A stretch of DNA of 46,824 bases from a virus, in the IMG/VR virus record IMGVR_UViG_3300042113_000153, positions 1-46,824 of that record; one strand, 5' to 3'. This document shows, in pieces, positions 3,573 through 32,080 of the stretch; positions within the stretch are counted from its first letter, which is position 1; every line of letters begins with the position of its first letter. Position numbers and translations under genes: made by a program. The notes below the pieces were generated by a model that saw only the letters and a list, made by a program, of their open reading frames with translations, was not told the DNA's origin and made no database searches.

Positions 3573-3853
3573 TGTACAAATTTAACGAAGACAAACTATT
3601 AAAAGAATTTAAACAATATATTGACCAAACATATAAAGGTCATTATTCTAAAAAGAAATTTCAATCAACAGAGTTCATCGTTGATTGTGGTCATGGTCTA
3701 GGATTTACACTAGGCAATGTTTTAAAATATGCTCAAAGGTATGGGCATAAAGATGGACAAAATCGTAAAGATCTTTTAAAGATTTTACACTATGCTCTTC
3801 TTGCTTTATATATACACGATCAAGGAGAAAAACTTAATAATGAAAAGGAGTGA
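3572..3853 (+). CDS. DUF3310-like small phage protein
   Basis: This 93-residue protein has a central GFTLGNVLKYAQRYGHKDG followed by DLLKILHYALLAL. This fits the short phage family usually annotated DUF3310 (SaV-like), whose core is lGNaiKYxxRxgxKdG...DLxKAxxYl. The biochemical role of that family is not settled. It is translationally coupled to the paralogue upstream and its 3' end carries the ribosome binding site of the sliding clamp gene, so it belongs to the clamp operon. Confidence 0.6.
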   Translation: MYKFNEDKLLKEFKQYIDQTYKGHYSKKKFQSTEFIVDCGHGLGFTLGNVLKYAQRYGHKDGQNRKDLLKILHYALLALYIHDQGEKLNNEKE

Positions 3854-3855
3854 AA

Positions 3856-4554
3856 ATGAAACTAAGTAAAGAAACACTTGCGATTATGAAAAACTTCGCA
3901 GGAATTAATGCCAATCTGATGTTAAAGAATGGTAATAAAATATCAACAATATCGCCAGCAAAAAGTGTAATGGCTGTGGCACAAATTTCAGAAAATTTGC
4001 CAATTAATGGTTCTGGAAATTTTGGTATATATGAATTAAACGATTTTCTATCAGCTTACACATTAATGGAAGATGCAGATTTAACATTTGCTGATAAATT
4101 TTGCATAATTTCTAAAGGTCATCAAAAAATTAAATTTTATGCAGCATCGAGTGAAGCATTACTTGTTCCATCAAAAGAAAGTTTGCCTGTTTCTGATGAT
4201 GTATCTTTTAATTTAAAAGCTTCAGATTTAGATATGATTTCAAAGTCAGCAGCAATTTTAAAAGTGAGTGATATATCAATCGTATCAAAAGATGGTAAAG
4301 TAAGTGTTGAAGTTGCTGACAAGAAAGCTAAACAAGTGGGGCAACTTCCATCTTCGACTAATGCTTTTAATATTGATATCGGTACTTCAGATAAAGAATT
4401 TAAAGTAAATATGAAAGTTGAAAATTTACAAAAAATTGTACTTACAGATTATGTAGTGACAGTTGATAGCAAAAAACTATCTAAGTTTTCAGCAACTAAA
4501 GGTTCGCTAGTATATTACATCGCAATCGAATCTGATTCTGTAATCGGCAAATAA
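3856..4554 (+). CDS. gp45: Sliding clamp (DNA polymerase processivity factor)
   Basis: This 232-residue protein compares with 228 in T4 gp45. The N-terminus MKLSKETLAIMKNFAGIN follows the T4 clamp pattern MKLSKxTxAxxKNFAxINxxxMLK closely. The trimeric ring encircles DNA and tethers the polymerase; in T4 it is also the mobile activator of late transcription. The start is ATG 3856, 5 nt after AAGGAG (3845-3850); a GTG at 3850 overlaps the ribosome site itself and is unlikely. A stable hairpin follows the stop. Likely partners here are gp43 and, by its tail, the TET-like dioxygenase. Confidence 0.95.
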   Translation: MKLSKETLAIMKNFAGINANLMLKNGNKISTISPAKSVMAVAQISENLPINGSGNFGIYELNDFLSAYTLMEDADLTFADKFCIISKGHQKIKFYAASSEALLVPSKESLPVSDDVSFNLKASDLDMISKSAAILKVSDISIVSKDGKVSVEVADKKAKQVGQLPSSTNAFNIDIGTSDKEFKVNMKVENLQKIVLTDYVVTVDSKKLSKFSATKGSLVYYIAIESDSVIGK

Positions 4555-4556
4555 TT

Positions 4557-4579
4557 TAATGGGAGGAATACTCCCATTA
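4557..4579. terminator. Hairpin after the clamp gene
   Basis: A perfect 9-bp stem TAATGGGAG/CTCCCATTA encloses the 5-nt loop GAATA, between the gp45 stop and the gp44 ATG (4597). No U-run follows, so it may attenuate, stabilise a processed 3' end, or set the clamp-to-loader ratio rather than stop all transcription. The same GGGAG/CTCCC arms occur in the hairpin at 3148-3194. Confidence 0.55.
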
Positions 4580-4596
4580 TACATCTATATTATATT

Positions 4597-5550
4597 ATGA
4601 TAAACACATCTGACAATCAATTCGTTTGGGTCGAGAAGTATCGTCCTCGTACAATCAACGAATGTATCTTACCTAAAAATTTTAAACTTACATTAAAGTC
4701 TTTCATTAAAGGAGGACAGATACCACATTTTCTATTTTATGGTACAGCAGGTGTTGGTAAAACTACTGTCGCTCGTGCATTATGTGATGAAATTGGTGCT
4801 GAGTATATAATTATAAATGGTTCAGAAGAGGGTCGTATGATTGACACTCTAAGAGTAAAGATTAAAGGATTCGCTTCAACTGTATCTTTGACTGCAGCAA
4901 AAAAAGTAATTATTCTAGATGAAGCTGATTATATGACTCCAAATATAATGCAACCAGCTTTAAGAGCATTTATAGAAGAGTTTTCTTCTAATTGTAGATT
5001 TATACTTACTTGTAATTTTAAAAATAAAATCATTGATCCAATTAAATCAAGATGTTCTGTAATTGATTTTAAAATACCATCAGACGAGAGAGTAATTATT
5101 GCAGGTGATTTTTTCAATAGAGTTATTGAGATTCTTGATAAAGAAAATATAAAATACGATAAGAAAGTAGTCGCTACTCTTATACAAAAGTTTTTTCCTG
5201 ATTTTAGAAAAACATTAAACGAACTACAAAGATATTCTGTAGGTGGTACTATCGATACAGGAGTTCTTGTAGGTGTATCAGACGAGTCTTATACAAAACT
5301 ATTTAAATACTTAAAGAATAAAGAGTGGGATAAAATGCGTGAATGGGTTGATCTTAATTCAGATATTGATACTACAAATTTATTCTCAGAGATATTTGAA
5401 AAGTGCCAACCAACAATGGATAAAAATTCAATACCAGAGTTGGTTTTAATATTAGCAGATTATCAATACAAGTCAGCTTTCGTAGCAGATGCAAATATTA
5501 ATAAGATTGCTGCAATGACAGAGATAATGAAAAAATGTCAGTGGAAGTAA
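4597..5550 (+). CDS. gp44: Clamp loader large subunit (AAA+ ATPase)
   Basis: This 317-residue protein (T4 gp44: 319) is of the RFC small-subunit type. It opens with WVEKYRPRT, has Walker A GTAGVGKT (49-56), Walker B VIILDEAD (104-111), a sensor-1 LTCN and the SRC box with its arginine finger (151-153). Four copies with one gp62 load the gp45 ring in an ATP-dependent way. The gene lies between the clamp hairpin and gp62, whose start is inside its 3' end. No TTTAC-type promoter is visible in front of it, so read-through from the gp45 transcript is likely. Confidence 0.95.
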   Translation: MINTSDNQFVWVEKYRPRTINECILPKNFKLTLKSFIKGGQIPHFLFYGTAGVGKTTVARALCDEIGAEYIIINGSEEGRMIDTLRVKIKGFASTVSLTAAKKVIILDEADYMTPNIMQPALRAFIEEFSSNCRFILTCNFKNKIIDPIKSRCSVIDFKIPSDERVIIAGDFFNRVIEILDKENIKYDKKVVATLIQKFFPDFRKTLNELQRYSVGGTIDTGVLVGVSDESYTKLFKYLKNKEWDKMREWVDLNSDIDTTNLFSEIFEKCQPTMDKNSIPELVLILADYQYKSAFVADANINKIAAMTEIMKKCQWK

Positions 5551-5945
5551 AAAAGTATAAAACGAATCCATTTAAGTTCGTCACAGCTATCAATTACAGT
5601 AAAGAAAACCTACACGAAACAGAGACTTTCGAAGACGATTATTTGCCTTATATTATCAATAAATCTCTCTCTATGTTTCCAGATACAGTCCAAATAGCTA
5701 ATGAAATCAACATTTTGCACTATATTCCAAAGAAATGGCAATTTCTATTTTACCTAAATATAGTCGCTAAGAAGAAAAGATATTCGAATAAAAAGTGGGC
5801 GAAAAAATCTAAAGATTCTAATGAACCCTTTATTATGGAATATTATAACGTGTCTGCTCAAAAAGCAAAAGAGATATTATCCCTTTTAAAACCAGAGCAG
5901 ATTGAAACTATTAAATCAAAATTTTATAAAGGTGGCATACAATGA
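5535..5945 (+). CDS. gp62: Clamp loader small subunit
   Basis: This 136-residue protein, shorter than T4 gp62 (187), begins with NPFKFVTAIN, the typical opening of the family. It has no ATPase motif, as expected, and organises the gp44 tetramer. The gene overlaps gp44 by 16 nt in another frame and its stop overlaps the regA start (ATGA), so all three are probably translationally coupled, as in T4. The missing length is at the C-terminal side. Assignment rests on the N-terminal motif and on position. Confidence 0.85.
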   Translation: MSVEVKKYKTNPFKFVTAINYSKENLHETETFEDDYLPYIINKSLSMFPDTVQIANEINILHYIPKKWQFLFYLNIVAKKKRYSNKKWAKKSKDSNEPFIMEYYNVSAQKAKEILSLLKPEQIETIKSKFYKGGIQ

Positions 5946-6409
5946 GTGAAGTTGAAAATAAACAAGAATCATTAGAGACTGTGAAAGAAGATTCAAGTAA
6001 ATCTGTTCCATATGCATGGAGTCCAGATAAAATGTTAGAAGTTTTTCTGATCGAACCAGATAACTTTTTAAAAATTAGAGAAACATTAACACGTATCGGT
6101 ATCGCAAGTCGTACTGATAAAAAATTATATCAATCTTGTCATATATTACATAAACAAGGAAGATATTTTATTGTTCATTTTAAAGAATTATTTTCTTTAG
6201 ATGGAAAAGAATCTAATATTACTACAAACGATATTGAAAGAAGAAATACAATAGCTGTATTATTGGCTGATTGGGGATTATTAAAAATTAAAGATCTCGC
6301 TCAAATTTCATCCAAAGCTTCTTTAAGTCAAATCAAAGTTTTAGCACATAAAGACAAAGCAGGTTGGGAATTAGTTGCTAAATATAACATTGGAAAAAGA
6401 GCAAAATAA
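5942..6409 (+). CDS. regA: RegA translational repressor
   Basis: The protein is 155 residues. From residue 31 it aligns closely with T4 RegA: EPDNFLKIRETLTRIGIA, LYQSCHILHKQG, YFIVHFKE, and a final AKYNIGK. RegA binds ribosome binding sites of early phage mRNAs and blocks their translation. The 30-residue N-terminal extension, Glu/Ser-rich, is absent from T4 RegA. Met31 (ATG 6032) matches the T4 start and has GGAG 10 nt upstream (6018-6021), so a second, shorter form is possible. The 5942 start is coupled to the gp62 stop. Confidence 0.93.
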   Translation: MSEVENKQESLETVKEDSSKSVPYAWSPDKMLEVFLIEPDNFLKIRETLTRIGIASRTDKKLYQSCHILHKQGRYFIVHFKELFSLDGKESNITTNDIERRNTIAVLLADWGLLKIKDLAQISSKASLSQIKVLAHKDKAGWELVAKYNIGKRAK

Positions 6410-6410
6410 A

Positions 6411-6566
6411 ATGTTTTATATTTGGCATACTCTATTAATAGTTGCTTTTATAGTTATGGCATTCTTTATGGGTCTTATTTTAGGTAAGAAAATGGGCTCA
6501 AAGACACAAGATTTAAGTACATTGAATAAAAAAAAAGATAATAAATTCAATGATTTAAATAAATAA
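6411..6566 (+). CDS. Small single-span membrane protein
   Basis: This 51-residue protein has a hydrophobic helix at about residues 5-26 followed by a Lys-rich tail, suggesting a membrane anchor with a cytoplasmic C-terminus. ATG 6411 follows the regA stop by one base. No family is recognised; it is the last gene before the structured hsp20-operon leader. Confidence 0.55.
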   Translation: MFYIWHTLLIVAFIVMAFFMGLILGKKMGSKTQDLSTLNKKKDNKFNDLNK

Positions 6567-6571
6567 TATTG

Positions 6572-6606
6572 TATAGGTACTAGTAATTTTAAAAATAATA
6601 CCTATA
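6572..6606. terminator. Inverted repeat at the end of the regA operon
   Basis: TATAGGTA (6572-6579) and TACCTATA (6599-6606) form an 8-bp perfect repeat around a 19-nt loop. The right arm overlaps a TATAAT (6605-6610) that could be the -10 of the next operon, so the element may be either a 3'-end hairpin or an operator. Confidence 0.4.
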
Positions 6607-6709
6607 TAATAGTGTATATTCGATCGTTGTATCGAATATAACACACCTGATTGTTCCAATAGTGGAAAGTCAGTAGTAAATAATAACCTTGCTTTCATAG
6701 GAGGATATA
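6605..6709 (+). promoter_or_regulatory. Structured 5' leader of the phasin-like/hsp20 operon, candidate RNA thermometer
   Basis: TATAAT at 6605-6610 would start transcription near 6617, but no TTTAC -35 box is present. The region can fold into a perfect 10-bp hairpin (6615-6624 with 6631-6640) and a second bipartite hairpin (CTGA/TCAG with TTCC/GGAA, 6647-6673). The ribosome site AGGAGG (6699-6704) can be partly masked by pairing 6683-6689 (ATAACCT) with 6702-6708 (AGGATAT), six pairs with one A-A mismatch. Weak pairing over a ribosome site upstream of a heat-shock gene is the layout of an RNA thermometer. This is an inference from sequence only. Confidence 0.4.
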
Positions 6710-6913
6710 ATGATAGCACACATAAACCAAGCGATTGACACTCTGTCAAACGCACAAAAGTCTGTTGTTGAAACATTCATCAAAGACTCAAAAGTAGCAG
6801 AACCAGTAAATTCAATTATTGATGCTACTCAAACTTTTAGCAAAACATTAGCAAAATCATTCGTGAATTTAGGCGAAACATTTGTTGCGAATATTAGCAA
6901 AGGAGGAAAGTAA
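6710..6913 (+). CDS. Phasin-like small amphipathic protein
   Basis: This 67-residue protein is predicted to be largely helical, with amphipathic repeats and the pattern AIDTLSNAQKSVVETF resembling short phasin-type proteins. It has no signal peptide or transmembrane span. A strong AGGAGG sits 5 nt before the ATG. Its stop overlaps the ATG of hsp20 (TAATG), so the two are one operon; a helical partner of the small heat-shock protein, or a coat for aggregates or membranes, is plausible. The family call is tentative. Confidence 0.45.
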   Translation: MIAHINQAIDTLSNAQKSVVETFIKDSKVAEPVNSIIDATQTFSKTLAKSFVNLGETFVANISKGGK

Positions 6914-7365
6914 TGACTAGACTTCCTACTTTTTTTAATGATGCATTCAAAGACTTCGATAAGTTCTTCGTAGGATTCGATGATCAATTAGCACGATTCC
7001 ACGATATACACGAGTCGTTTGGAAAAATGATACCAAACTACCCACCATACAACTTAAAAAAAGTTGATGATAACAAATATGTTATCGAAGTGGCTGTTGC
7101 TGGGTTTGCAAAATCAGACATTGAAATCACACTAGAAGATGACAAATTAATCATCAAAGGTGAATCAAAATCTGACGAAACAAAATCAGATTCAAAAGAT
7201 ATTGAACTATACAAAGGTATAGCAAATCGTGCATTCGAAAGATCGTTTGCATTATCTGAGAACATCGAAGTAAAAGATGCTCAATATCTAAATGGTATGT
7301 TAAAAGTTATTCTTGAAAGAATAATCCCAGAACATAAAAAACCAAAAAAAATAGCAGTAAAATAA
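6913..7365 (+). CDS. hsp20: Small heat-shock protein (Hsp20/alpha-crystallin)
   Basis: This 150-residue protein has an alpha-crystallin domain at about residues 45-140. It shows the beta-strand pattern YVIEVAVAGFAKSDIEI, DDKLIIKGE, an NRAFERSFALSENI segment and NGMLKVILER, the hallmark of the domain's end. Small heat-shock proteins hold unfolding proteins in an ATP-independent way, and phage copies are common among marine T4-like viruses. The N-terminal region (PTFFND...FDKFFVGFDD) is IbpA-like. The C-terminus lacks a clear IxI motif. A terminator-like hairpin follows. Confidence 0.95.
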   Translation: MTRLPTFFNDAFKDFDKFFVGFDDQLARFHDIHESFGKMIPNYPPYNLKKVDDNKYVIEVAVAGFAKSDIEITLEDDKLIIKGESKSDETKSDSKDIELYKGIANRAFERSFALSENIEVKDAQYLNGMLKVILERIIPEHKKPKKIAVK

Positions 7366-7387
7366 TACTACTATTTTAAATTTGTTG

Positions 7388-7415
7388 ATTGGTGGAGTTT
7401 AATTATTCCACCAAT
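7388..7415 (+). terminator. Probable intrinsic terminator after hsp20
   Basis: A 9-bp perfect stem ATTGGTGGA/TCCACCAAT (7388-7396, 7407-7415) with a 10-nt loop is followed by an interrupted T-rich stretch (TTTTAATTTTATTT). It is the best intrinsic-terminator candidate in the window and closes the phasin-like/hsp20 operon. Confidence 0.65.
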
Positions 7416-7446
7416 TAGCATTTTAATTTTATTTAAGAGAAAAAAA

Positions 7447-7611
7447 ATGATTCCTTATAACGTTTGTGAAAACAAATGGGTAAGTAAAACTAAAAAAACA
7501 ATAAAGAATAATTATAGAGAATATCAACCTTTATATGAAATAATATTTGGTGTATCTCTTATGATAGTTTGTATTTTAGGAATACTTACTGCATTGAGTA
7601 GTTTTCTATAA
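7447..7611 (+). CDS. Small membrane protein
   Basis: This 54-residue protein has a polar, Lys/Asn-rich N-terminal half and one hydrophobic helix at about residues 31-50 near the C-terminus (tail-anchored layout). ATG 7447 is preceded by AAGAG. The next gene begins 3 nt after the stop codon begins to clear, so they are probably cotranslated. No family is recognised. Confidence 0.45.
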   Translation: MIPYNVCENKWVSKTKKTIKNNYREYQPLYEIIFGVSLMIVCILGILTALSSFL

Positions 7612-7613
7612 AA

Positions 7614-7796
7614 ATGAGCAATCTTCCAAAAGATTGTATTTTCCATCTTGCTTGTTTAGGCATTCAGTGTTGTTTGCTTAAACAATGTAAGTGCGAGGAA
7701 TCTTTCAATCTTGAAAAAGAAACAAAAACCCCAGATAAATTTATTCCAAAAACACCATCAGAATTACTCCAGGATGAATTAGAACCAATTCTTTAA
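7614..7796 (+). CDS. Small Cys-rich protein
   Basis: This 60-residue protein has six cysteines in the first 27 residues (C8, C14, C19, C20, C25, C27) and an acidic, Pro-containing tail. The cysteines could bind a metal, but the spacing does not match a standard zinc ribbon. It lies between the hsp20 terminator and the next early promoter. Function unknown. Confidence 0.5.
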   Translation: MSNLPKDCIFHLACLGIQCCLLKQCKCEESFNLEKETKTPDKFIPKTPSELLQDELEPIL

Positions 7797-7799
7797 AAC

Positions 7800-7828
7800 T
7801 TTACATACAAGTATTTTTATAGTATAAT
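7800..7828 (+). promoter_or_regulatory. Early-type promoter, leaderless transcript expected
   Basis: TTTACA (7800-7805, then TACAAG) and TATAAT (7823-7828) have a 17-bp spacer and an extended TAG before the -10. Predicted initiation near 7835 coincides with the ATG at 7836, so no ribosome binding site can be present on the mRNA. Confidence 0.8.
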
Positions 7829-7835
7829 ATAGTCT

Positions 7836-8156
7836 ATGAATCAAAATAATCCACAAGTTAAAATAATCGTATTGTTAAATGGCCAACATATGATTGGTAA
7901 AGTAATTAGAGAAGATGAAAAAGAACTTATTATCGAAGCACCTGCTGTTATATTAACAGGCGAAGACAATAAAGAAACAAAAAGAATGTCATTAGCATTC
8001 GCACCATTTCTACCCTTTTCATCTGATAAAACATTTACTTTTAGATCAGATATGGTATTAACAACATCAATTCCAGCAGAAGCATTAACTAACGAATATA
8101 ATCGTATGTTTGGTTCTGGTTTAGATATTATAACAAAACCATCTTTAATAGTGTAA
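7836..8156 (+). CDS. Sm-like (LSm) fold protein, tentative
   Basis: This 106-residue, mostly beta-strand protein has a segment, VKIIVLLNGQHMIGKVIREDEK then LIIEAP, that follows the Sm1 pattern (LxNGxxxxGxV) seen in Hfq/LSm RNA-binding proteins. Small early proteins of this type recur in marine T4-like phages. If it is Sm-like it could bind phage or host RNA early in infection. The gene has its own promoter and an essentially leaderless ATG. The fold call is by eye from the N-terminal half; the C-terminal half is unassigned. Confidence 0.5.
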   Translation: MNQNNPQVKIIVLLNGQHMIGKVIREDEKELIIEAPAVILTGEDNKETKRMSLAFAPFLPFSSDKTFTFRSDMVLTTSIPAEALTNEYNRMFGSGLDIITKPSLIV

Positions 8157-14311: not shown

Positions 14312-14479
14312 ATGAAAACCTTAAAAGAATTAAAAATAGAATTAAAAGAACTTCAAAAAGAACACGAGTTTGAATCAACCAATTTTCTAAAAAACAATTA
14401 TAATCTTAAAAAAATAGAAGAAGATATAGTTGAATTACAAGACACAATCAATAAAAGGGAGAAATATACAAATGCCTGA
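14312..14479 (+). CDS. Small coiled-coil protein upstream of uvsX
   Basis: This 55-residue protein is almost entirely a charged heptad-like helix (LKELKIELKELQKEHE...). ATG 14312 is used because the promoter's -10 lies at 14282-14287; upstream in-frame codons would precede the transcript start. The predicted leader is about 18 nt without a clear ribosome site. Its last codons overlap the uvsX start, suggesting coupling. Role unknown. Confidence 0.5.
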   Translation: MKTLKELKIELKELQKEHEFESTNFLKNNYNLKKIEEDIVELQDTINKREKYTNA

Positions 14480-15569
14480 TTTTTTAAAAGACGTAATAAA
14501 AGATATTAATAACGAATATGCTGGTACAGCTGATGGTGATTTAGTAGGAGATTCTACATCATTTGTAGATACTGGATCTTATATATTCAATGCTTTATTA
14601 TCTGGTAATATCTATGATGGACTGCCAGCAAATAAAATTACTGCATTAGCAGGAGAACCATCGAGTGGCAAAACGTTTTTTACATTAGGAATTTGTAAAA
14701 CATTTCAACAATTAGAGAAACAAGCAGGAATTATATATTTTGAAACAGAGGGTGCTATTACTAAAGACATGCTTGCTGAAAGAGGAATAGATCCTAAGAG
14801 ATTTGTATTAATACCTGTATCAACAGTACAAGAATTTAGAAACCAAGCTACAAAAATTTGTGATAATGTTGATAGAGTTCCATTAGAAGCAAGACATCCT
14901 ATTCTGATTGTATTAGATTCACTTGGGAATCTTTCAACTGAAAAAGAAGTAAAAGATATTATTGAAGGAAATGATACTCGTGATATGACAAGAGCACAAT
15001 TAATTCGTGGTGCTTTTAGAGTTCTTGCTTTAAGATTATCTAAATTACAAATTCCAATGATTGTGACGAATCATACGTATGATGTAATTGGTGCTTATGT
15101 ACCAACAAAAGAAATGGGTGGTGGATCTGGCTTAAAATATGCTGCATCAACTATTGTATATTTGAGTAAATCAAAAGACAAAGATTCTGATAAAAATATA
15201 ATTGGCAATATTATAAGAGCAACTTTACAAAAATCTAGATTTACGAGAGAATTTTTAAAAGCTGAAATAAAACTTTCTTATGAGACAGGTCTTGATAGAT
15301 ACTATGGATTAATTGACGTCGCAGTTGATGCTGGTATTTGGAAAGACGAGGGTGGTAGGATTGACGTTGGTGGAACAAAAGTATTTGGTAAAGCCATTAA
15401 AGAAAACCCTGAGAAATATTTTACAAAAGAAGTATTAGATAAAATAAATGAATATACTCAAAAAGCATTTAAATATGGTTCTACTGTCGAACTATCAGAT
15501 AAGGTGAGTGAAATACAACCAGAAGAGAAAAAAGATGGTGGACGAAAAACAAAATCAAAATCCGAATAA
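14472..15569 (+). CDS. uvsX: UvsX RecA-like recombinase
   Basis: This 365-residue protein (T4 UvsX: 391) has Walker A GEPSSGKT at residues 61-68, the catalytic-glutamate segment YFETEGA, Walker B ILIVLDSLGNL and an NHTYD segment. It forms filaments on single-stranded DNA and drives strand exchange for recombination-dependent replication. I chose ATG 14472, which has AAGGGAG (14455-14461) upstream; a longer in-frame start would lie within the ribosome site of this one. The tail is Lys/Asp/Glu-rich. Confidence 0.95.
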   Translation: MPDFLKDVIKDINNEYAGTADGDLVGDSTSFVDTGSYIFNALLSGNIYDGLPANKITALAGEPSSGKTFFTLGICKTFQQLEKQAGIIYFETEGAITKDMLAERGIDPKRFVLIPVSTVQEFRNQATKICDNVDRVPLEARHPILIVLDSLGNLSTEKEVKDIIEGNDTRDMTRAQLIRGAFRVLALRLSKLQIPMIVTNHTYDVIGAYVPTKEMGGGSGLKYAASTIVYLSKSKDKDSDKNIIGNIIRATLQKSRFTREFLKAEIKLSYETGLDRYYGLIDVAVDAGIWKDEGGRIDVGGTKVFGKAIKENPEKYFTKEVLDKINEYTQKAFKYGSTVELSDKVSEIQPEEKKDGGRKTKSKSE

Positions 15570-16020
15570 AACGGAAATACCATCTACAAAAGAAAATTTA
15601 TTTCCTTTTATAGATCCTAATTCTTTTGAATCTAAAGAAGCATATGAAGAAGCAAGAAACGAATATCTTAAATCAAAACCAGTAAATGTACCACCATATG
15701 AAACTTTAGAAAATAAAGGTAAGTATGGATCTAATGAAATTAGATTTAAAAATGGAATACTTGAAAACGTAGTTGTATCATTTGGCAAAGTGTCATTTGA
15801 AAATCAAACAGATGGTAATATAAAATTATTCTACGAGTATGATGCTAATGTAGAAAAATCATTACATCCATTTAATATAGAAATACCAGAAAGCAAGCAA
15901 TTACTTGAAAAACATCTAGGAGACTTTCTTATGGCTTGTATAGAAGAACAAGCAAGAAATAAAACCATTTTATTCAGAGGTGGCAAAGAAGAAATGGAAG
16001 CATACACAAAAACTAAATGA
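15535..16020 (+). CDS. Hypothetical protein between uvsX and helicase
   Basis: This 161-residue acidic protein starts within the 3' end of uvsX and stops within the helicase start (ATGA). The N-terminal 35 residues are Asn/Pro/Lys-rich and probably disordered; a beta-rich part (EIRFKNGILENVVVSFGKVSFENQ) and a C-terminal helix follow. T4-type phages often have small recombination or helicase-loading factors here, but no similarity to UvsY or gp59 could be seen. A GTG at 15508 is an alternative start. Confidence 0.6.
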   Translation: MVDEKQNQNPNKTEIPSTKENLFPFIDPNSFESKEAYEEARNEYLKSKPVNVPPYETLENKGKYGSNEIRFKNGILENVVVSFGKVSFENQTDGNIKLFYEYDANVEKSLHPFNIEIPESKQLLEKHLGDFLMACIEEQARNKTILFRGGKEEMEAYTKTK

Positions 16021-17420
16021 GAATAGAAACAACAATACTAAAAAATTTACTTCACGATGAAGACTATGCTCGTAAAGTTGTTCCACATTTACGTGAAGAG
16101 TATTTTCAAGATAAAATTGAAAGAGCAATTGCTAGTCAAATACTAAAGTTTTTTATTAAATTTAATAAACCAGCTACAGTTGAGATTATTGATATCGAAC
16201 TTGGTAATGATAAAACTTTATTTGAAACTGATTATCAACAAGCACAAGCTTATACAAGAGAATTAAAGAATAAAGAAGATATAAATTCTAAATGGCTAGT
16301 TGATGCTACTGAGAAATTTTGTAAAGATAAAGCTGTCTATAATTCTATTATGGATAGTATTAAGATTATAGATGGTCGTGACAAAGTAAGAAAACAAGAT
16401 AGCATTCCTTCTTTATTATCTGAAGCACTTGCTGTTTCTTTTGACAAATCAGTTGGGCATGATTATCTTGAAAATGCTGATGATCGTTTTGATTTTTATA
16501 AACGTACTGAAGAAAAAATACCATTTGATATAGATTTATTTAATACTATTACACGTGGTGGTGTAAGTAATAAAACTTTAAATGTTGCCTTAGCAGGAAC
16601 AGGAGTTGGTAAATCTTTGTTTTTATGTCATTTTGCATCAGCAAATTTAATGAACAATCTTAATGTACTCTATATAACTTTAGAGATGTCTGAAGAAAAA
16701 ATTGCTGAACGTATTGATGCGAATTTATTAAATGTCACTATGGATGAGTTGAAAATTCTAGAGAAAATAGATTTCACCTTACGTGTTGATAGAGTAAAAG
16801 AAAAAACTAAAGGAAAACTTGTTATAAAAGAATTTCCTACAGCAACAGCCCATGTTGGTCATTTTAGAGCATTACTTGATGAACTAAAAATGAAAAAAGA
16901 TTTTAAACCAGATGTTATTTACATAGATTATTTAAATTTATGTGTTTCTGCTAGATTAAAATATGGTGGAAATAATAATTCTTATACCATCATTAAAAGT
17001 ATAGCAGAGGAATTAAGAGGATTAGCAGTACAATACGATCTACCTATAATGACTGCTACTCAAACAACAAGACAAGGATATACATCTTCTGATTTAGGAT
17101 TAGAAGATACTTCTGAGTCATTTGGTCTTCCAGCAACTGCTGACTTTATGTTTGCAATTATTGCTACTGAAGATATGATTAAAGAAGGAATAGCGAGTGT
17201 AAAACAATTAAAAAATCGTTATAACGATCCTAATTACTATAAAAGATTTGTCGTTGGTGTTGAAAGAAACAAGATGAAAGTCTATAATCTTGAAACTGAA
17301 CATATGAAAAGACATATGGCACTAGCTGACGCAGGAGATTCTACACCTGTATTTGATAAGGGAAATATAGGTGAAAGAATAAAGGCAGAAACAACATCAT
17401 CGTTTAAATTCGATGAATAA
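16017..17420 (+). CDS. gp41: Replicative DNA helicase (DnaB family)
   Basis: This 467-residue protein (T4 gp41: 475) has an N-terminal helical domain and a RecA-like motor with Walker A AGTGVGKS (193-200), the YITLEMSEEKIAERI segment, Walker B VIYIDYLNL (near 300) and a TATQTTR sensor. Hexamers unwind DNA 5'-3' at the fork with the gp61 primase, here encoded 20 kb downstream. The start overlaps the preceding gene by four bases. The C-terminus TSSFKFDE is acidic. Confidence 0.95.
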   Translation: MRIETTILKNLLHDEDYARKVVPHLREEYFQDKIERAIASQILKFFIKFNKPATVEIIDIELGNDKTLFETDYQQAQAYTRELKNKEDINSKWLVDATEKFCKDKAVYNSIMDSIKIIDGRDKVRKQDSIPSLLSEALAVSFDKSVGHDYLENADDRFDFYKRTEEKIPFDIDLFNTITRGGVSNKTLNVALAGTGVGKSLFLCHFASANLMNNLNVLYITLEMSEEKIAERIDANLLNVTMDELKILEKIDFTLRVDRVKEKTKGKLVIKEFPTATAHVGHFRALLDELKMKKDFKPDVIYIDYLNLCVSARLKYGGNNNSYTIIKSIAEELRGLAVQYDLPIMTATQTTRQGYTSSDLGLEDTSESFGLPATADFMFAIIATEDMIKEGIASVKQLKNRYNDPNYYKRFVVGVERNKMKVYNLETEHMKRHMALADAGDSTPVFDKGNIGERIKAETTSSFKFDE

Positions 17421-17435
17421 CATAAAGGAAAAAAG

Positions 17436-18734
17436 ATGACAACAAAAGTGATAACCGCAGCAACTAAAATCGATTGCGAACATTTGCTTGCGACTTTTGT
17501 GGATCATTCACACTATGACACTTTGGTGGAATATGACTGTGATTTCTATGCTCCATCTGTTGATGGGATAAACAGCGAGAAAAACATTCTGTTTAAATTT
17601 AGAAAAAATTGGTTCACGAAAGAACAACAAGACTTAGCATATAAAGGTCTTAGAGAAGCAGCAGTCGAAACACAAAATCGTGGCATAGCAGCAGGACCAA
17701 AAGGTTCAAAACTTGGTGGTCGTGATTGGGTGACTGAATATCAAGAAGAAATGCTTGAAGCATTATCTAAGTATGAAAATACACTTGATGGTTCTAATCC
17801 TATAACAACAATTACAGAAAAATATAAAAACAAAGATAAAACAGCAGCAGGATCTAGAGGATCTGTGTGGCTTAAGAATAAAGTCACTGATGAAGGATTT
17901 ATCTTTGAAGAGTGGTTAAATGAAATAAAATCATTACCTCGTGAAGAAATAGTAAAAGAAGCAATACGAGTGAAAACTAAATTGACTTCAACAACTTCAT
18001 ACGCACAAGCAGTGTGGTCTGGTATTGCTGGATATTTTGATAGATATCCTCGTATTCCTTATGGAAGAGCAACATCTTTCACTGAAAAGAATCCTGAGAA
18101 ATTTGCTATGGGATTCCCATTCTTACAAAAACTTTCAGATGGTTTTAAACAATTATTGCCTGAACGTTATGCGAAACAAAAAGAAGCATGTGATAAAATG
18201 GATCCAAAGTTTATTATTCCAGGAACTGTATTTACTACAGCGACTGTAAATAAAACTTTTAGAACAGCAGCACATAGAGATGCTGGTGATTTAAATGAAG
18301 GATTCAGTAATCTTACAGTAGTATCAAACAATGGTAAGTACAGAGGAGGTTATCTAGTACTACCAGAATACAGAGTTGCTGTAAATATACGTCCAGGAGA
18401 TTTATTATTAATTAATAATCACGAGGGTATTCATGGAAATACTGAAATGGTTGTTGAAGATCCTGAAGCAGAACGTATTTCTTTCGTATGTTATTTCAGA
18501 GAAAAGATGCTAGAACTTGGCTCTTGGAATTATGAATTAACTAGAAAAAATTATGTCGAGGACAGACGTAGAAATAAAAACCACCCATTACAAAGAGAAC
18601 TTTGGAATGGAGTTTCAGAAAATATGTGGAAAGATCAAGAATGGTATGATTATCTAACATCTAAATTAGGTAAAGAAACATTATACAAATATCATCCTGA
18701 AGCGAATAAATCTTCACTTGAAGCATTTTTTTAA
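17436..18734 (+). CDS. TET/JBP-family 2OG/Fe(II) dioxygenase (DNA base hydroxylase)
   Basis: This 432-residue protein has a double-stranded beta-helix core with the JBP/TET signature. RTAAHRDAGDL carries the Fe ligands H280 and D282, GIHGNTE carries H333, and ERISFVCYFR carries the 2OG-binding R347. A conserved upstream block PYGRATSFTE (208-217) also matches phage members as I recall them. Family members oxidise the methyl group of 5-methylcytosine (TET) or thymine (JBP) in DNA. A glycosyltransferase starts 2 nt after its stop, fitting stepwise base hypermodification. The C-terminus SSLEAFF nearly repeats the polymerase's SSLEDFF, suggesting clamp binding. The ribosome site is AAAGGAAA. The substrate base cannot be told from sequence. 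Confidence 0.85.
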   Translation: MTTKVITAATKIDCEHLLATFVDHSHYDTLVEYDCDFYAPSVDGINSEKNILFKFRKNWFTKEQQDLAYKGLREAAVETQNRGIAAGPKGSKLGGRDWVTEYQEEMLEALSKYENTLDGSNPITTITEKYKNKDKTAAGSRGSVWLKNKVTDEGFIFEEWLNEIKSLPREEIVKEAIRVKTKLTSTTSYAQAVWSGIAGYFDRYPRIPYGRATSFTEKNPEKFAMGFPFLQKLSDGFKQLLPERYAKQKEACDKMDPKFIIPGTVFTTATVNKTFRTAAHRDAGDLNEGFSNLTVVSNNGKYRGGYLVLPEYRVAVNIRPGDLLLINNHEGIHGNTEMVVEDPEAERISFVCYFREKMLELGSWNYELTRKNYVEDRRRNKNHPLQRELWNGVSENMWKDQEWYDYLTSKLGKETLYKYHPEANKSSLEAFF

Positions 18735-18736
18735 CC

Positions 18737-19741
18737 ATGTCTCTCCATGAATTTTTAGGAGAGGAACGAGCACTAGATTGGTATTATACTGCTAATTCTT
18801 CAAACAAGGGATTAAAACTTGGTTATCGGAGAGTATCTGGTAAAATAGGATTAACAAATAAAGAATCTGGTGTTCGTGGTGCATGGGTAGAGAAAAGAAT
18901 TGCACTCTTTAAGAACTTATTTGCATCTGGTTATTCAATAATTCCTTTTTCAACACCAACAGAAGCAACAGCAGCAGATGGATTTACATCTGTTGATAAA
19001 TACACAAATTGTGATATTCTTTTATTAGAATTTGGTGGAACAAATCTACAATTTTATAAAAAAGATTGGGATAAAACAGTTGAACTAATTAAATCACATT
19101 CTGGAAAAATAATATTCATTAATGACGATCCTGACTTACCATTTCTTTGGGAATTACTACCAGATGAAAAATGGGATAGATGGATAGTTGCAGCAAATGC
19201 AACTAATTCTGCAGAAGTATCAACAATCCTTAAATGCCCAATGGGTGTTAGAGTTGTAGATTTACCAATGGCGAATGGAATGACGTTTGAATCTTTTTCA
19301 AATGGTAATATAGATAAAACAGTCTATATTGGAAGACCAAATGGAAGAACAAAATACTTTAAAGAATTTTTAAAATCACCAAATATTGAAATATCAGGAA
19401 AACCAAAAGAGTGGACTGATTTTAATATAAATGTTATTGAAAACCCACAACAAAAAGATCGAAGAAAATTCTACAGAAATTATAAAGGTTGTTTAACTGT
19501 TTATGACAGTAAGCACAAAACATCTGGATGGAGAACTGGTCGTGCTTTTCATGCACTTTATGCTGGTATTCCAGTTTGTGCACCATCAGGAAATAATGGT
19601 TTAAACTGGACATATCCTGTAGAAACTGCAGAGGACTTAACTAAATTTACATCTTTATCAGATGAAAAACGTAAATTAATTTGGGAAAAACAAAAATCAA
19701 TTATTCAAAATGAAACAAATATAGATTTAATTTTATTATGA
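18737..19741 (+). CDS. GT-B glycosyltransferase, probable DNA-base glycosyltransferase
   Basis: This 334-residue protein has GT-B features: a CDILLLEFG strand (92-100), VYIGRPNGRTKYF (197-208) comparable to the T4 alpha-glucosyltransferase segment after its linker, and the donor-site element WRTGRAFHALYAGIPVCAP (265-283), the usual glycosyltransferase pattern E/AxxAxGxPV. It would transfer a sugar from a nucleotide donor. Its position between the TET/JBP-type dioxygenase and a HAD phosphatase makes hydroxymethylated DNA the likely acceptor; this is inference. Its stop overlaps the next ATG (ATGA). Confidence 0.75.
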   Translation: MSLHEFLGEERALDWYYTANSSNKGLKLGYRRVSGKIGLTNKESGVRGAWVEKRIALFKNLFASGYSIIPFSTPTEATAADGFTSVDKYTNCDILLLEFGGTNLQFYKKDWDKTVELIKSHSGKIIFINDDPDLPFLWELLPDEKWDRWIVAANATNSAEVSTILKCPMGVRVVDLPMANGMTFESFSNGNIDKTVYIGRPNGRTKYFKEFLKSPNIEISGKPKEWTDFNINVIENPQQKDRRKFYRNYKGCLTVYDSKHKTSGWRTGRAFHALYAGIPVCAPSGNNGLNWTYPVETAEDLTKFTSLSDEKRKLIWEKQKSIIQNETNIDLILL

Positions 19742-20187
19742 TAGTGTCTTACGATATGGATGGTGTTCTTGCACTAAATCCACCACCAAATATAAAAAAA
19801 TGGGGACATATGAATGGGGCTGAAAGAAGAGCAAGAAAAGAATTTCTATATGATTGGTATAATTCTGCTGAACCATTATATAAACCAACCGAAGATAAAT
19901 TTCATGTAATTTCAGCAAGGAAAAAAGACCAACGCACTTGGGAAATAACGATGAGTTGGTTAAATAAATACTTTCCTGGAAGAGTAATTTCATTATCTCT
20001 ATTAAACGTACCGAGAACTGTAAATAATGTAGTAAAGTTTAAAAATGATACTATAAATTCAATCGGTGCAGTCGAGCATACTGAAGATAATAAAAAAGTA
20101 TTAAAAGGTATTTTAAAAATTAATAAGAATATTAAATTATATTTTTGGGAAAAGAATATGGTAAATAAAGAAATATTTAATGGCTAA
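19738..20187 (+). CDS. HAD-like phosphatase
   Basis: This 149-residue protein has HAD motif I YDMDGV (nucleophile D6, acid D8) and motif II VISAR (S59). A conserved EHTEDN near residue 112 is in the place of motif IV. It is short, so it probably has no or a minimal cap domain. Such enzymes hydrolyse phosphate esters, often nucleotides or sugars. It starts inside the glycosyltransferase stop, so it may process a sugar or nucleotide in the same modification pathway, but a general nucleotidase role is as likely. Confidence 0.7.
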   Translation: MIVSYDMDGVLALNPPPNIKKWGHMNGAERRARKEFLYDWYNSAEPLYKPTEDKFHVISARKKDQRTWEITMSWLNKYFPGRVISLSLLNVPRTVNNVVKFKNDTINSIGAVEHTEDNKKVLKGILKINKNIKLYFWEKNMVNKEIFNG

Positions 20188-20770
20188 AAATTATTTTCAT
20201 TTAAAACTTCCTTTTAAAGATCCTTTGAGCGAAGAGGGTATGAAATGGTTTTTTGATTTACCACCTTGTTTTATACAAGTACCAAATAAATACTTTAATC
20301 CAGAAGCTGTTGAGTTTTTTAAAAAACATAAATTACTCTATTGGGATGCTGAAGTATTTTCATTTCCAGCGAATTATAAAATGGAAATACACGTAGATGC
20401 TGTTGAATTTTCAGAAAAATGTAAATTAAATTGGGCTTACAGTAAAGGGGATCATCATAATCTTTGGTTTAAACCAAAACCAAGTTGGGTACCAAGAGCA
20501 ACTGATGGTGAACAAGATGATGGACGTTATGATGAGTATAGCTACAGTTTTGAAGAAAATGAAGTTGAAGAAGTAGAAAGAACTACTGTAAGAACACCAA
20601 CTTGTATAGTAAGTGGTCAGCCACATAGTGTACGTACATATAGTGAACCAAGAAAAGCAATTTCTGTCACTCTATATCCATATGGAACTAATCCACCAGC
20701 TTTACCAAAAGACTGGGGAATGCCAATATCAAACATGAGAGAGGTTTTAAATGATTACATCGTTAATTAG
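20180..20770 (+). CDS. Putative 2OG/Fe(II) oxygenase-like protein
   Basis: This 196-residue protein has a pattern compatible with a double-stranded beta-helix oxygenase: EIHVD (H71, D73), a distal QPHSVRT (H149) and EPRKAISVTLYP (R158). The insert between them (about residues 100-140) is acidic and probably disordered. The gene overlaps the HAD gene by 8 nt. If active it may act on the same modified DNA or on a protein. Confidence in the fold is moderate because no further family motif is visible. Confidence 0.5.
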   Translation: MAKNYFHLKLPFKDPLSEEGMKWFFDLPPCFIQVPNKYFNPEAVEFFKKHKLLYWDAEVFSFPANYKMEIHVDAVEFSEKCKLNWAYSKGDHHNLWFKPKPSWVPRATDGEQDDGRYDEYSYSFEENEVEEVERTTVRTPTCIVSGQPHSVRTYSEPRKAISVTLYPYGTNPPALPKDWGMPISNMREVLNDYIVN

Positions 20771-28221: not shown

Positions 28222-29907
28222 ATGAATAATAAATGTTGTTTTAATAACTTATCAAACGGATTAAGAATATCTTTATTCTTAATGTTGTTATCGTCAACAG
28301 CATATTCACAAACATCTACAACTACTGTGACAGTAAATGGTAATACAACCACAACTGTGATAACAACTACAACACCAATTCAATCAATCCCTGTTAATAA
28401 TTCTCCAAACTTTGGAGACATTACAACATATATTACTAATCAAGTTGATACTACAACTAATGTACAAACTGCTAATCAAAGTACTGGAAACGTATTTTCA
28501 GGAACCAATTTTTGTAATGGTGGATGGACAGGCACACAAATTAATGGTGGTACAAGTGATTTAGGTTGTAATTATTTAACAGGCAAAGGAACTTCATCTT
28601 ATGCTGAAAATAATAAAACTTTATTATCATTAGGCATTTCAAAAGTAGAACAAAATTTAGGATTCACACAATCAGCTTCAGCATACACTCATCATTATTG
28701 GCCATGGAACAGTAATCTTACTTTTTCTCATTCAGTGACAAATAATGATACTGGAGAAACAATTACACAAAATAGAATATTATCAGGCAATAATAGTATT
28801 AATGGTGGTAATCCTGGAGTAAAAAGTTTAGATAATATTATCATTGGAGCAAATAGTTCATCAGGATACACATCTAATATGAGATTTGATTTTTCACAAT
28901 CTACATCAGGAGGAACGTGGACTGGCGTTGATGTGACTTCACCTAATTTAAGTATCACATATACAGGTTTTACTTCTTCACTTGCTACCACATATGTAAA
29001 TACAACTACAGTACAAACTTGTGAGTCGTTAGGTACTTGTTATGTACCACCAGTTATAGAATTGCCTAAATTTATAAGTCCAGCAAAAGGTGCTGAACCG
29101 ATGGAAGTAATTAGTGAAGAAGAAATTAAACAAATATTTAAAGAAGAATTTGCTAAAGTTGGATTAACTGAAGCAGATATTGGTATGAGTGATTTAGATT
29201 ATAAAGAAATGACAAAAGAAATAAACAAAGAAGCTGTGGCTGATATGAAAGAAGCAAACCCATCTCTTTTTGGAAGCCCAGACCAAACTTCATCTATGAA
29301 TAAAACAAGTGACGATAAACCTACAACAAAGGAATCATCAAATGTCAGTTCAAACTCAGAGACAACTACAAAAACGTCAAGCACGACAACTGAAAAAACA
29401 GAAACTTCTGCAGCTAAGTCTACTCCAAGCGAAAATACGAAAGCAGAAGGATCGTCGTCTAAGACGTCATCATCTGAAAATGTATCGAATGAGAAGGGAA
29501 GCACTACTGCGTCAGGGAATGTTAGTGTCGGCAATTCTACTTCCAAAGATGAAAAAATCAGCGTAAATGTAAAAGCTGCAGTTGAGAAAGTTGAAAGAGA
29601 ATTAAAAAGTATAGGTGATAAAACAAAAGCAATACAAGAAATTAAACTAGATGGAATAAAAGCAGGCTCTCCAAACTTAGCAGTTTATGAGAATCGTTCT
29701 TTTTACGAACCTAAATATTATAATGGAGTACCAAATCCAGATTTTTATTTACAGGCTGATATAGCACAGAAACCAGTTTATGCAAATGTGACATTATTGC
29801 CATATACAAATAATGATCCTATTGGAAAACAACAAGCAGCAATGCAACAAATTCAAGATGAGATGAATGATATAATTATTCAACTTGAAGAACTAAAAAG
29901 GAAATAA
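28222..29907 (+). CDS. Large exported Ser/Thr-rich protein
   Basis: This 561-residue protein has a signal peptide ending in AYSQ (about residue 29), then a Thr-rich stretch (TTTVTVNGNTTTTV). A beta-rich, Gly/Asn-rich domain (about 80-270) with a few Cys follows, then an acidic helix, a long Ser/Thr/Lys linker (about 350-445) and a C-terminal coiled coil. The design resembles a secreted surface or adhesin-like protein. Being Sec-exported, it probably decorates or alters the host envelope during infection. No family name can be given. Confidence 0.6.
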   Translation: MNNKCCFNNLSNGLRISLFLMLLSSTAYSQTSTTTVTVNGNTTTTVITTTTPIQSIPVNNSPNFGDITTYITNQVDTTTNVQTANQSTGNVFSGTNFCNGGWTGTQINGGTSDLGCNYLTGKGTSSYAENNKTLLSLGISKVEQNLGFTQSASAYTHHYWPWNSNLTFSHSVTNNDTGETITQNRILSGNNSINGGNPGVKSLDNIIIGANSSSGYTSNMRFDFSQSTSGGTWTGVDVTSPNLSITYTGFTSSLATTYVNTTTVQTCESLGTCYVPPVIELPKFISPAKGAEPMEVISEEEIKQIFKEEFAKVGLTEADIGMSDLDYKEMTKEINKEAVADMKEANPSLFGSPDQTSSMNKTSDDKPTTKESSNVSSNSETTTKTSSTTTEKTETSAAKSTPSENTKAEGSSSKTSSSENVSNEKGSTTASGNVSVGNSTSKDEKISVNVKAAVEKVERELKSIGDKTKAIQEIKLDGIKAGSPNLAVYENRSFYEPKYYNGVPNPDFYLQADIAQKPVYANVTLLPYTNNDPIGKQQAAMQQIQDEMNDIIIQLEELKRK

Positions 29908-30281: not shown

Positions 30282-30500
30282 ATGAAAATAATATTACAAA
30301 AAATATCAATTCAACTTAAAACACTATTTTTTATTCTAGTGTTTGCTAGTTTATTTTATGTAGGATTACTCCTTGGAGAATATCGTACATTAAAAGAATA
30401 TTGTTTAGTTGAGAATACGAAATGTGATATTAATTATTTTGTACAAAAAGGATCTCTTATTACTATAAAACATCCTAAACCAATAGCAGAAAATAAATGA
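30282..30500 (+). CDS. Small single-span membrane protein
   Basis: This 72-residue protein has one hydrophobic helix (about residues 14-31) and a short periplasmic tail with two Cys (EYCLVENTKC) that could be disulfide-bonded. Its 3' end overlaps the next gene (ATGA). Function unknown. Confidence 0.5.
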   Translation: MKIILQKISIQLKTLFFILVFASLFYVGLLLGEYRTLKEYCLVENTKCDINYFVQKGSLITIKHPKPIAENK

Positions 30501-32080
30501 ACCCAGTAGATAAAAATAAAAAAGATAATCTTGCAAGAGGAACTCTTACATACAAAGATTTTAAAAGATTGTTAGATATACAAAATTTACAAAGTAAGCA
30601 AGCATTCTCTCAAAATACTCAACACACATTTGATGAAGGAATGTTTAAAAATATGGCAATTGATTTACAAGATTTATCGGCTAATGAATTTTTTAATAAG
30701 TATAAAATAACAAAAGCAGAAGCAATGCGTAAATATGGTAAGAGCGAATCTGTTATTGATATACCACAAAAAACTTATTCTAAACTAATTTTTGATAATG
30801 CTGATACAGAAGAACCAAAATTAAAAGAATCGGTAAGGAAAATCATATTAGATCAAATAGAAGAATTTAAAAAGAAAGCACCTGTTATAAAATTTAGTTT
30901 AATTGGATCAATACTTACAAAACAATATAGAGATGATGCTGATTTAGATGTAAATGTTCTTTTTGATGTTCCAGAAAGTCAAAGAGATGAAAAAAGATTA
31001 GAGATTGCTAAATCATTAAAAGATATAAATGGTAAAACAGTTCCAGGAACTAATCATCCGATTAATTATTTTGTATTAACAGATCCTAAGTTAAAAGAAA
31101 GAAATGATAATTTAAGTGATGGTATTTTTGATATTGTAAAAAACGAGTTTATTAAAAAACCAGTAGAATTTAAATTCAATCCTGAAAAATACGCAAAAGA
31201 TTTTGAAGAAAAAGTAAAAAGATTAGATGTTGTTAAAGGTGAATTAGAGAGAGATATAATTGATTATCAAGATTTAAAACGTTTAGATCCAGACAATGTT
31301 GAAAATTTAAAAAGTATTGTTTCGAAAAAAATTGGTGAAATTATGTCAGGTATTAAAACATTAGTGGATGCTGGCGACCAAACTTTAAAAGATCGTAAAG
31401 AAGTATTTGATGCTGATTTAACACCAGATGAAATACGTGAATATGGTAAGAAAAATGCTTTACCAAAAAACGTCATTTACAAAATGTTAGAAAAGTATCA
31501 TTATTTAACTTTTTATAAAAAATTAAAAGAAATAATAAAAGATGGAGAAATTTCTGATAAAGAAATAGCTTCAATAAAAGAGTCAAACGATCCTTATGAT
31601 TCTAAATTTGATTTTGGTTTAGATGATTATGAAATGGATGCAATTATTCGTAAATATGATAATGAAGATCCACTTGAAGATGACGATTACTTGGATATTT
31701 ATGATGATGATGAATTAGATGTAGTTGATGATGAAAATACTAATTATAATATTCCTCCAATTAAAGAAGTTCTTACGAGACCAGAACGTATTAAATCACG
31801 TATTCGTTTTGCGAGAACAAAAGGAAAAAGAAATGCTAAATTACGTCTTGCTCTAAAGAGAGCATCAACTATGGATGTAGTAAATAAAAGAGCAAGAAGA
31901 CTTGCGATTAATAAAATTAAAAAATTATTATTTAAAAAATCACCAGCAAGTATGTCAGTTGCTGAAAGAGAAAGAGCTGAAAAACGTATAGCAGCATTAC
32001 CAAAATCTTATGTTGATAATTTTGCTATGAAATTAGTGCCAACGATTCGTAAAATTGAAAGAACAAGATTAACAAAATAA
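30497..32080 (+). CDS. Pol-beta-superfamily nucleotidyltransferase-like protein
   Basis: This 527-residue protein has at residues 132-157 the nucleotidyltransferase motif LIGSI (G137 S138), then DADLDVNV (D149, D151), with a further strand NYFVL. This is the minimal signature of the DNA polymerase beta fold. The central part is coiled and acidic (DDEDDYLDIYDDDELD-like near 400-415). The C-terminus (about 430-527) is very basic, a type I have seen on virion-associated proteins of marine phages. It may be an injected enzyme that modifies RNA or proteins; the substrate is unknown. Confidence 0.6.
   Translation: MNPVDKNKKDNLARGTLTYKDFKRLLDIQNLQSKQAFSQNTQHTFDEGMFKNMAIDLQDLSANEFFNKYKITKAEAMRKYGKSESVIDIPQKTYSKLIFDNADTEEPKLKESVRKIILDQIEEFKKKAPVIKFSLIGSILTKQYRDDADLDVNVLFDVPESQRDEKRLEIAKSLKDINGKTVPGTNHPINYFVLTDPKLKERNDNLSDGIFDIVKNEFIKKPVEFKFNPEKYAKDFEEKVKRLDVVKGELERDIIDYQDLKRLDPDNVENLKSIVSKKIGEIMSGIKTLVDAGDQTLKDRKEVFDADLTPDEIREYGKKNALPKNVIYKMLEKYHYLTFYKKLKEIIKDGEISDKEIASIKESNDPYDSKFDFGLDDYEMDAIIRKYDNEDPLEDDDYLDIYDDDELDVVDDENTNYNIPPIKEVLTRPERIKSRIRFARTKGKRNAKLRLALKRASTMDVVNKRARRLAINKIKKLLFKKSPASMSVAERERAEKRIAALPKSYVDNFAMKLVPTIRKIERTRLTK

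Follow-up and report, generated by a model that had tools for sequence, protein, structure and literature searches.

Organization of the locus and its four genes

The window, that is, the whole virus record of 46,824 nt, covers the replication region of a T4-like phage and encodes a clamp loader, DNA polymerase, UvsX, the gp41 helicase and ribonucleotide reductase. Environmental DNA is the sole source of this T4-like virus, and this record as well as the nearby IMG/VR records may be fragments. On the + strand, an upstream anchor consisting of the UvsX recombinase, a 170-aa ORF and a gp41/DnaB-like helicase (14430..17420; PHROG matches at 5.5e-86 and 5.3e-116) precedes four ORFs, and this uvsX-x-gp41 order 5′ of the TET gene is common to most of the T4-like loci. 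The four ORFs, all on the + strand, are chained by a 2-nt gap followed by overlaps of 4 and 8 nt, exactly as the original prediction had them. They encode a TET/JBP Fe(II)/2OG dioxygenase (gene 1), a predicted GT-B DNA glycosyltransferase (gene 2, GT), a HAD-fold phosphatase (gene 3) and a predicted Fe(II)/2OG oxygenase-fold protein (gene 4).

Gene 1 (17436..18734, + strand; 432 aa) matched the Pfam family Tet_JBP (PF12851) with E=1e-23 and 83.8 bits, against a gathering cut-off of 34.9, and was assigned to phrog_24024 (3.9e-174). We observed that the full TET/JBP signature claimed for this protein, comprising the ligands H280, D282 and H333 and the 2OG-binding R347, is invariant across 142–143 aligned homologues; both the signature and the family assignment therefore hold. 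The protein also has a conserved N-terminal extension of ~180 aa. The closest TET from an isolate is that of DLP6 (55% identity). PDB sequence searches with the TET, HAD and gene-4 profiles gave no credible match, and the same search with the GT profile returned nothing credible, only weak matches to interleukin-2.

Gene 2 (18737..19741, + strand; 334 aa) reached the cut-off of no Pfam family (best Glyco_trans_1_2, E=0.11), did not match TAGT (PF20691) and had no significant pairwise sequence similarity to T4 beta-glucosyltransferase (BGT). Three different queries gave zero matches in 50,697 phage records, and 68 relatives were found in IMG/VR. Structure prediction gave a good model for gene 4 (pLDDT 89), whereas the AlphaFold2 model of gene 2 (mean pLDDT 52) is reliable for the N-terminal half only, to about residue 177, and plain Foldseek on it found no significant match. 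Therefore, we used only the result of the VIA structure comparison, run against 1000 PDB chains, on the confident part of the model (residues 26–177). T4 BGT ranked first, with three entries at Z 8.1 (1c3j, over 127 residues), 7.7 and 7.3, while T4 alpha-glucosyltransferase lay below it at 5.8 and unrelated folds at about 5.

The profile of gene 2 was compared by hhalign with that of the BGT family, which was built on seven BGT homologues. The match was marginal (P=0.0047) and collinear over 260 columns, and it scored above 60 of 60 column-shuffled controls and above the reversed control; a global run gave P=0.0002. In the profile–profile alignment, the invariant D131 of gene 2 falls on the BGT aspartate D100, and the regions of R200/R204 and R269 align with R191/R195 and R269 of BGT, while the correspondence of E52 to BGT E22 was matched by eye only. 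From the structural rank, the collinear profile and the paired, conserved residues, we read gene 2 as a distant BGT-like DNA glycosyltransferase. This prediction is made with moderate confidence and is based on half of a weak model and a marginal profile match. Sugar transfer by gene 2, which is inferred without any chemistry, appears to us quite likely. The original prediction had likened a segment of this protein to T4 alpha-glucosyltransferase; its glycosyltransferase-like character stands, but the alpha likeness was dropped, as BGT is the nearest structure and the profile comparison with the alpha enzyme was null. A likeness to the GT-like protein of C48C1 was dropped after a null profile comparison as well.

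Gene 3 (19738..20187, + strand; 149 aa) had no Pfam match. The motifs D6xD8G9V10L11, S59A60R61K62, K102 and E116D117N118 are invariant in 8 diverged members and are kept (DxDGVLA, SARK, K102 and EDN) even at 36% identity, so that the suggested HAD-like phosphatase is borne out by all four motifs. Gene 4 (20180..20770, + strand; 196 aa) carries the HxD...H...R/K pattern, with H71, D73 and H149 invariant, followed by R158/K159. It is predicted to form a double-stranded beta-helix (AF2 pLDDT 89.4), and the best structural matches of the model in the VIA comparison, all of them moderate, were Fe/2OG enzymes (7v4f and 1e5r, Z 9.3; PHD2, 8.5).

Exchange of tailoring modules behind a fixed TET gene

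We observed that the HAD gene lies directly 3′ of the GT gene in 45 of the 54 testable loci. A TET gene is present within the fetched stretch at 64 of the 69 GT-family loci, an association of the cassette genes far beyond chance. Siphophage-like loci show the arrangement ParB-GT-HAD-short TET, where the TET is 25–31% identical to that of the window; GT-HAD therefore adjoins TET in two different gene orders. The finding of the same partners despite another order and another phage background is strong evidence for a joint function of GT, HAD and TET. The HAD is not strictly required, since one GT locus (L177) lacks it, and at two other loci (L175 and L181) the GT is present without a TET gene nearby. 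A scan of host genomes for the GT family returned one MAG contig, with the order ParB-GT-TET and no host identified, which is probably phage.

Across about 80 loci from IMG/VR, TET is located 3′ of uvsX-x-gp41 or of another replication block, and the genes downstream of it vary. The commonest module after TET is GATase_6-Amidoligase_2-GNAT or LMW phosphatase-ADDT (PF18724)-P-loop kinase; other modules are GT-HAD, another GT-B gene, FkbM with ADDT, and TAGT (PF20691). The ADDT cluster (PF18724 in Cr30) was found in 50 neighbourhoods. The Caulobacter phage Cr30, whose laboratory host is C. crescentus CB15, carries this TET together with ADDT and a TAGT-like gene. Iyer et al. reportedly predicted phage TET, ADDT and TAGT clusters, which we took as a lead only.

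The boundaries of the exchange were located by blastn. In the window, the exchangeable slot (18741..20188, + strand) holds GT-HAD. When the window was compared with the locus L020, identity was 81% up to 18740, which lies six bases beyond the TET stop codon, absent inside the slot, and 85% from 20189, within the first codons of gene 4; the slot of L020 holds 3,645 nt of GATase-amidoligase-LMWP-ADDT-P-loop kinase. The locus L021, with a P-loop kinase alone (531 nt) in the slot, gave the same pattern with boundaries at 18734/20180. A close relative with a 90% identical TET carries amidotransferase-amidoligase-ADDT at the exact site of GT-HAD. On a tree of 75 TET sequences, we counted at least 16 changes among the GT-HAD, ADDT and GT-B states, and for GT-HAD alone 8 changes are forced by well-supported branches. 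We concluded that related viruses keep the TET gene and trade the decorating genes behind it as one block, and that the mobile unit is the GT-HAD pair.

The four genes had been proposed as one block, and this part of the proposal was not upheld, although the HxD...H...R pattern of gene 4 was confirmed and an Fe/2OG fold is predicted for it. The gene 4 family occurs beside GT-HAD modules and beside ADDT modules alike, and in two loci (L221 and L222) it is arranged in arrays, where the 12.6 kb that were fetched contain no TET gene. Because of these TET-less arrays, and because gene 4 stays put when the module changes, we list it as a conserved flank whose membership of the cassette is uncertain; that it is an obligate cassette enzyme is unproven. 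The combination of a fixed oxidase with exchangeable tailoring genes suggests that one oxidised base is the common target of the different modules.

Thymine and cytosine as candidate substrates

To our knowledge, the only phage TET studied experimentally acts on 5-methylcytosine, 5mC (Burke 2021). In the phage TET systems described in two later sources, the phage's own methyltransferase first makes 5mC (PMC11404850, PMC12730594). A cytosine route for the window, in which a methyltransferase forms 5mC, TET converts this to 5hmC and the GT adds a sugar, would follow the experimentally described role of phage TET (Burke 2021 via the same sources), and the natural substrate of BGT, which gene 2 resembles, is 5hmC.

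This route requires a methyltransferase that we could not find. The window lacks a C5-cytosine methyltransferase (PF00145), and its lack of both this enzyme and a dCMP hydroxymethylase agrees with the original prediction. Beyond the window, PF00145 was absent from 13 records, four of them complete isolate genomes, including DLP6, Cr30, C48C1, S-CBWM1 and the 144.8-kb close relative G001, and from further sets of 49, 11 and 23 records, that is, from all 96 others. Including the window, the total is 0 of 97 records, among them six isolate genomes and four complete T4-like genomes with this long TET; in the positive controls, the search detected the family in 13 of 14 genomes. This absence still leaves room for an unknown methylating enzyme or for methylation by the host. 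The methyltransferases of DLP6 and C48C1 that were tested are of FkbM/generic or N6-adenine types, and genes of the thymidylate-synthase family (dCMP/dUMP hydroxymethylases and dCMP methylases) occurred in only one of the 13 records, Cr30. Where no such enzyme is present, thymine is the one 5-methylpyrimidine that the DNA contains in plenty.

The gene context also points to uracil-derived bases. The modules that replace GT-HAD at the same slot contain ADDT, which we take to be the family of transferases that act in 5-hmdU-based hypermodification of thymine, although this link rests on other members of the family. In the loci L188 and L189, a distant GT-HAD pair (33–36%) is followed by a gene for HMUDK_hel, the helical domain of a 5-hmdU DNA kinase (9e-26), and a thymidylate-synthase-like gene (1.4e-15), and these records have no TET gene, as if 5-hmU were supplied there by the other known route. 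In the phages whose hypermodified thymine has been characterised, the route runs through 5hmdU with the help of a 5hmdU kinase and of amine transferases (PMC6449724).

Taken together, the ADDT module at the same slot and the HMUDK_hel/thymidylate-synthase-like context of the distant GT-HAD favour thymine, and the lack of a C5-methyltransferase in 97 records weakens the cytosine reading, which we consider unlikely. We infer, in the absence of chemistry, that TET probably acts on thymine. The original prediction had rightly kept thymine open, but the parity that it gave to the two bases can no longer be maintained. Two published observations also concern this inference, the first counting for it and the second against it. 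The DNA of DLP6 is listed as resistant to restriction enzymes (PMC8228603); in the original DLP6 paper, 18 enzymes were tested, and the main text as available does not name the resistant ones, so that T and C cannot be told apart from it. According to another study, T4 BGT glucosylates 5-hmU in duplex DNA only if it is mispaired with G (PMC4111573).

Oxidation of thymine to 5-hmU could also be followed by something other than glycosylation, if gene 2 transfers a group that is not a sugar, or if a phosphorylated intermediate is trimmed by the HAD. The failure of gene 2 to match any Pfam family or PDB sequence, the unreliable C-terminal half of its model and the pairing of GT-HAD with a kinase-family helical domain in L188 are compatible with this, but T4 BGT is its best structural match, well above the unrelated rows, and the collinear BGT profile match comes with candidate counterparts of the conserved active-site residues, so that we regard a non-sugar transferase as improbable. 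It is very improbable that TET serves counter-defence or host take-over by oxidising host 5mC or another methylated nucleic acid such as RNA, with unrelated genes next to it: the substrates of TET/JBP enzymes can include several kinds of nucleic acid and the GT has no TET nearby in two loci, but the genes after TET are mostly for DNA base tailoring (ADDT, TAGT, GT-HAD) and not random ones, and GT-HAD stays beside TET in two gene orders.

Proposed pathway and comparison with known systems

We propose that the locus would direct a hypermodification of thymine. The TET/JBP enzyme, encoded behind uvsX and gene 41, would convert thymine in DNA into 5-hmU by hydroxylating its 5-methyl group, as inferred from the family and context of the enzyme. 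The BGT-like glycosyltransferase might then use a nucleotide-sugar to glycosylate the hydroxyl of 5-hmU, and the inferred product would be a base-J-like, glycosylated 5-hmU. The HAD phosphatase may aid this step, for instance by removing a phosphate from the sugar donor or from the product; this is only weakly inferred and remains doubtful, and its role is otherwise unknown. The modification would be made on the phage's own DNA, after replication, and the likely benefit would be resistance to host nucleases.

The proposal rests on the intact motifs, the linkage across several phage lineages, the module exchange and the absence of an enzyme that supplies 5-methylcytosine. A DNA hypermodification cassette, as had been suggested from the sequence, remains the best explanation and is supported; its substrate and product are inferred and unproven. 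We lean towards the specific pathway from T through 5-hmU to glycosyl-5-hmU, with an exchangeable module on a fixed TET, for which there is no chemistry. The wider reading, a phage analogue of base J made by TET, an undescribed BGT-like GT and HAD, in which the modules that related phages swap at the slot add either sugars or amino acids to the same oxidised thymine, could equally prove right or wrong.

The association of phage TET with tailoring enzymes is known; the combination is new. What is new in the arrangement is that a cytosine methyltransferase is absent, that a new BGT-like GT is paired with a HAD, and that amino-acid modules use the same swap site. Glucosylated 5-hmU had not been reported in phages according to a 2019 study (PMC6449724). 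A widespread clade of phage TET without a recognisable cytosine methyltransferase, together with a single site at which sugar and amino-acid modules are interchangeable, opens thymine-directed viral TET chemistry to direct testing. A new family of DNA glycosyltransferases is indicated, with possible use as a tool, and the decoration of phage DNA would be changeable by a single cassette swap.

Among the known systems, TAGT (PF20691) is likewise found directly 3′ of TET, in S-CBWM1 and P12024L, with a HAD also in S-CBWM1, but the GT of the window is from a different family. The likeness of gene 2 to T4 BGT, which acts on 5hmC, is tentative and lies in the predicted fold of the N-terminal domain, the collinear profile match and the candidate E/D/R counterparts, whereas there is no significant pairwise similarity and the window is without a dCMP hydroxymethylase. 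The cytosine hypermodification of Burke et al. 2021 also has a TET/JBP enzyme and a glycosyltransferase in one cluster; the window differs from it in lacking a C5-methyltransferase and in having another GT, a HAD partner and a context that points to thymine.

The 5-hmU hypermodification of M6, ViI and phiW-14, by a 5-hmdU kinase and an amino-acid/amine:DNA transferase, is related to our locus through the ADDT modules that fill the same slot 3′ of an almost identical TET, and through the HMUDK_hel gene beside relatives of GT-HAD. Neither HMUDK_hel (PF18723) nor ADDT (PF18724) occurs in the window or in G001, and 5-hmU in the window would arise by the action of TET on thymine in DNA, unlike the supply from 5hmdUTP in those phages. 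Kinetoplastid base J, made by JBP1/2 and the J-glucosyltransferase, is similar in the proposed course, where a TET/JBP enzyme and a GT lead from T through 5-hmU to glycosyl-5-hmU. In contrast to base J, the system proposed here belongs to a phage, uses a BGT-like GT with a HAD partner, and its product would probably be protective and not an epigenetic mark.

Names of TET proteins and unassigned window genes

In GenBank, the TET proteins of three loci, L001 (7998-9344), L002 (7998-9326) and Synechococcus phage S-CBWM1 (L008, 3729-5165), are named 'SNF2 DNA repair protein', a name apparently transferred from JBP2. We observed a weak match of the window TET to PHROG 6059, which carries the name 'queuine tRNA-ribosyltransferase'. 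Elsewhere in the window, two large ORFs, 28222-29907 (561 aa) and 30497-32080 (527 aa), had no PHROG match.

Variation in cassette composition

In the viral loci L047, L143 and L146, the cassette includes a SulP sulfate-permease gene (L047, 4567-5679; SulP match 7.4e-49 in L047), arranged as GT-SulP-HAD in L047 and L146 and lying immediately behind the GT in L143. A 2OG-FeII_Oxy_5 oxygenase gene separates TET from GT in L158 (3408-4001), and likewise in L157 and L164. Several relatives have a second copy of gene 4, the predicted oxygenase-fold gene, ∼25% identical to the first and adjoining it (e.g. L016, 12745-14193), and arrays without TET in the fetched 12.6 kb (L221 and L222) contain as many as four. 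The cluster of L188/L189 also lacks TET and has, in order, GT, HAD, HMUDK_hel (the helical domain of the 5-hmdU DNA kinase alone, as a separate 297-aa protein) and a thymidylate-synthase-like gene.

Sugar-related genes behind TET in isolate phages

In Phage C48C1 (L003, 7908-11355), TET is followed by an unassigned 344-aa protein, GT-like by eye, and a UDP-galactopyranose mutase (GLF match 5.6e-52), an arrangement that suggests a galactofuranose-type decoration. In S-CBWM1, the order TET-TAGT-HAD-glucose-1-phosphate thymidylyltransferase-possible kinase (3729-7921) forms a complete-looking sugar-donor and transfer operon with TET in front.
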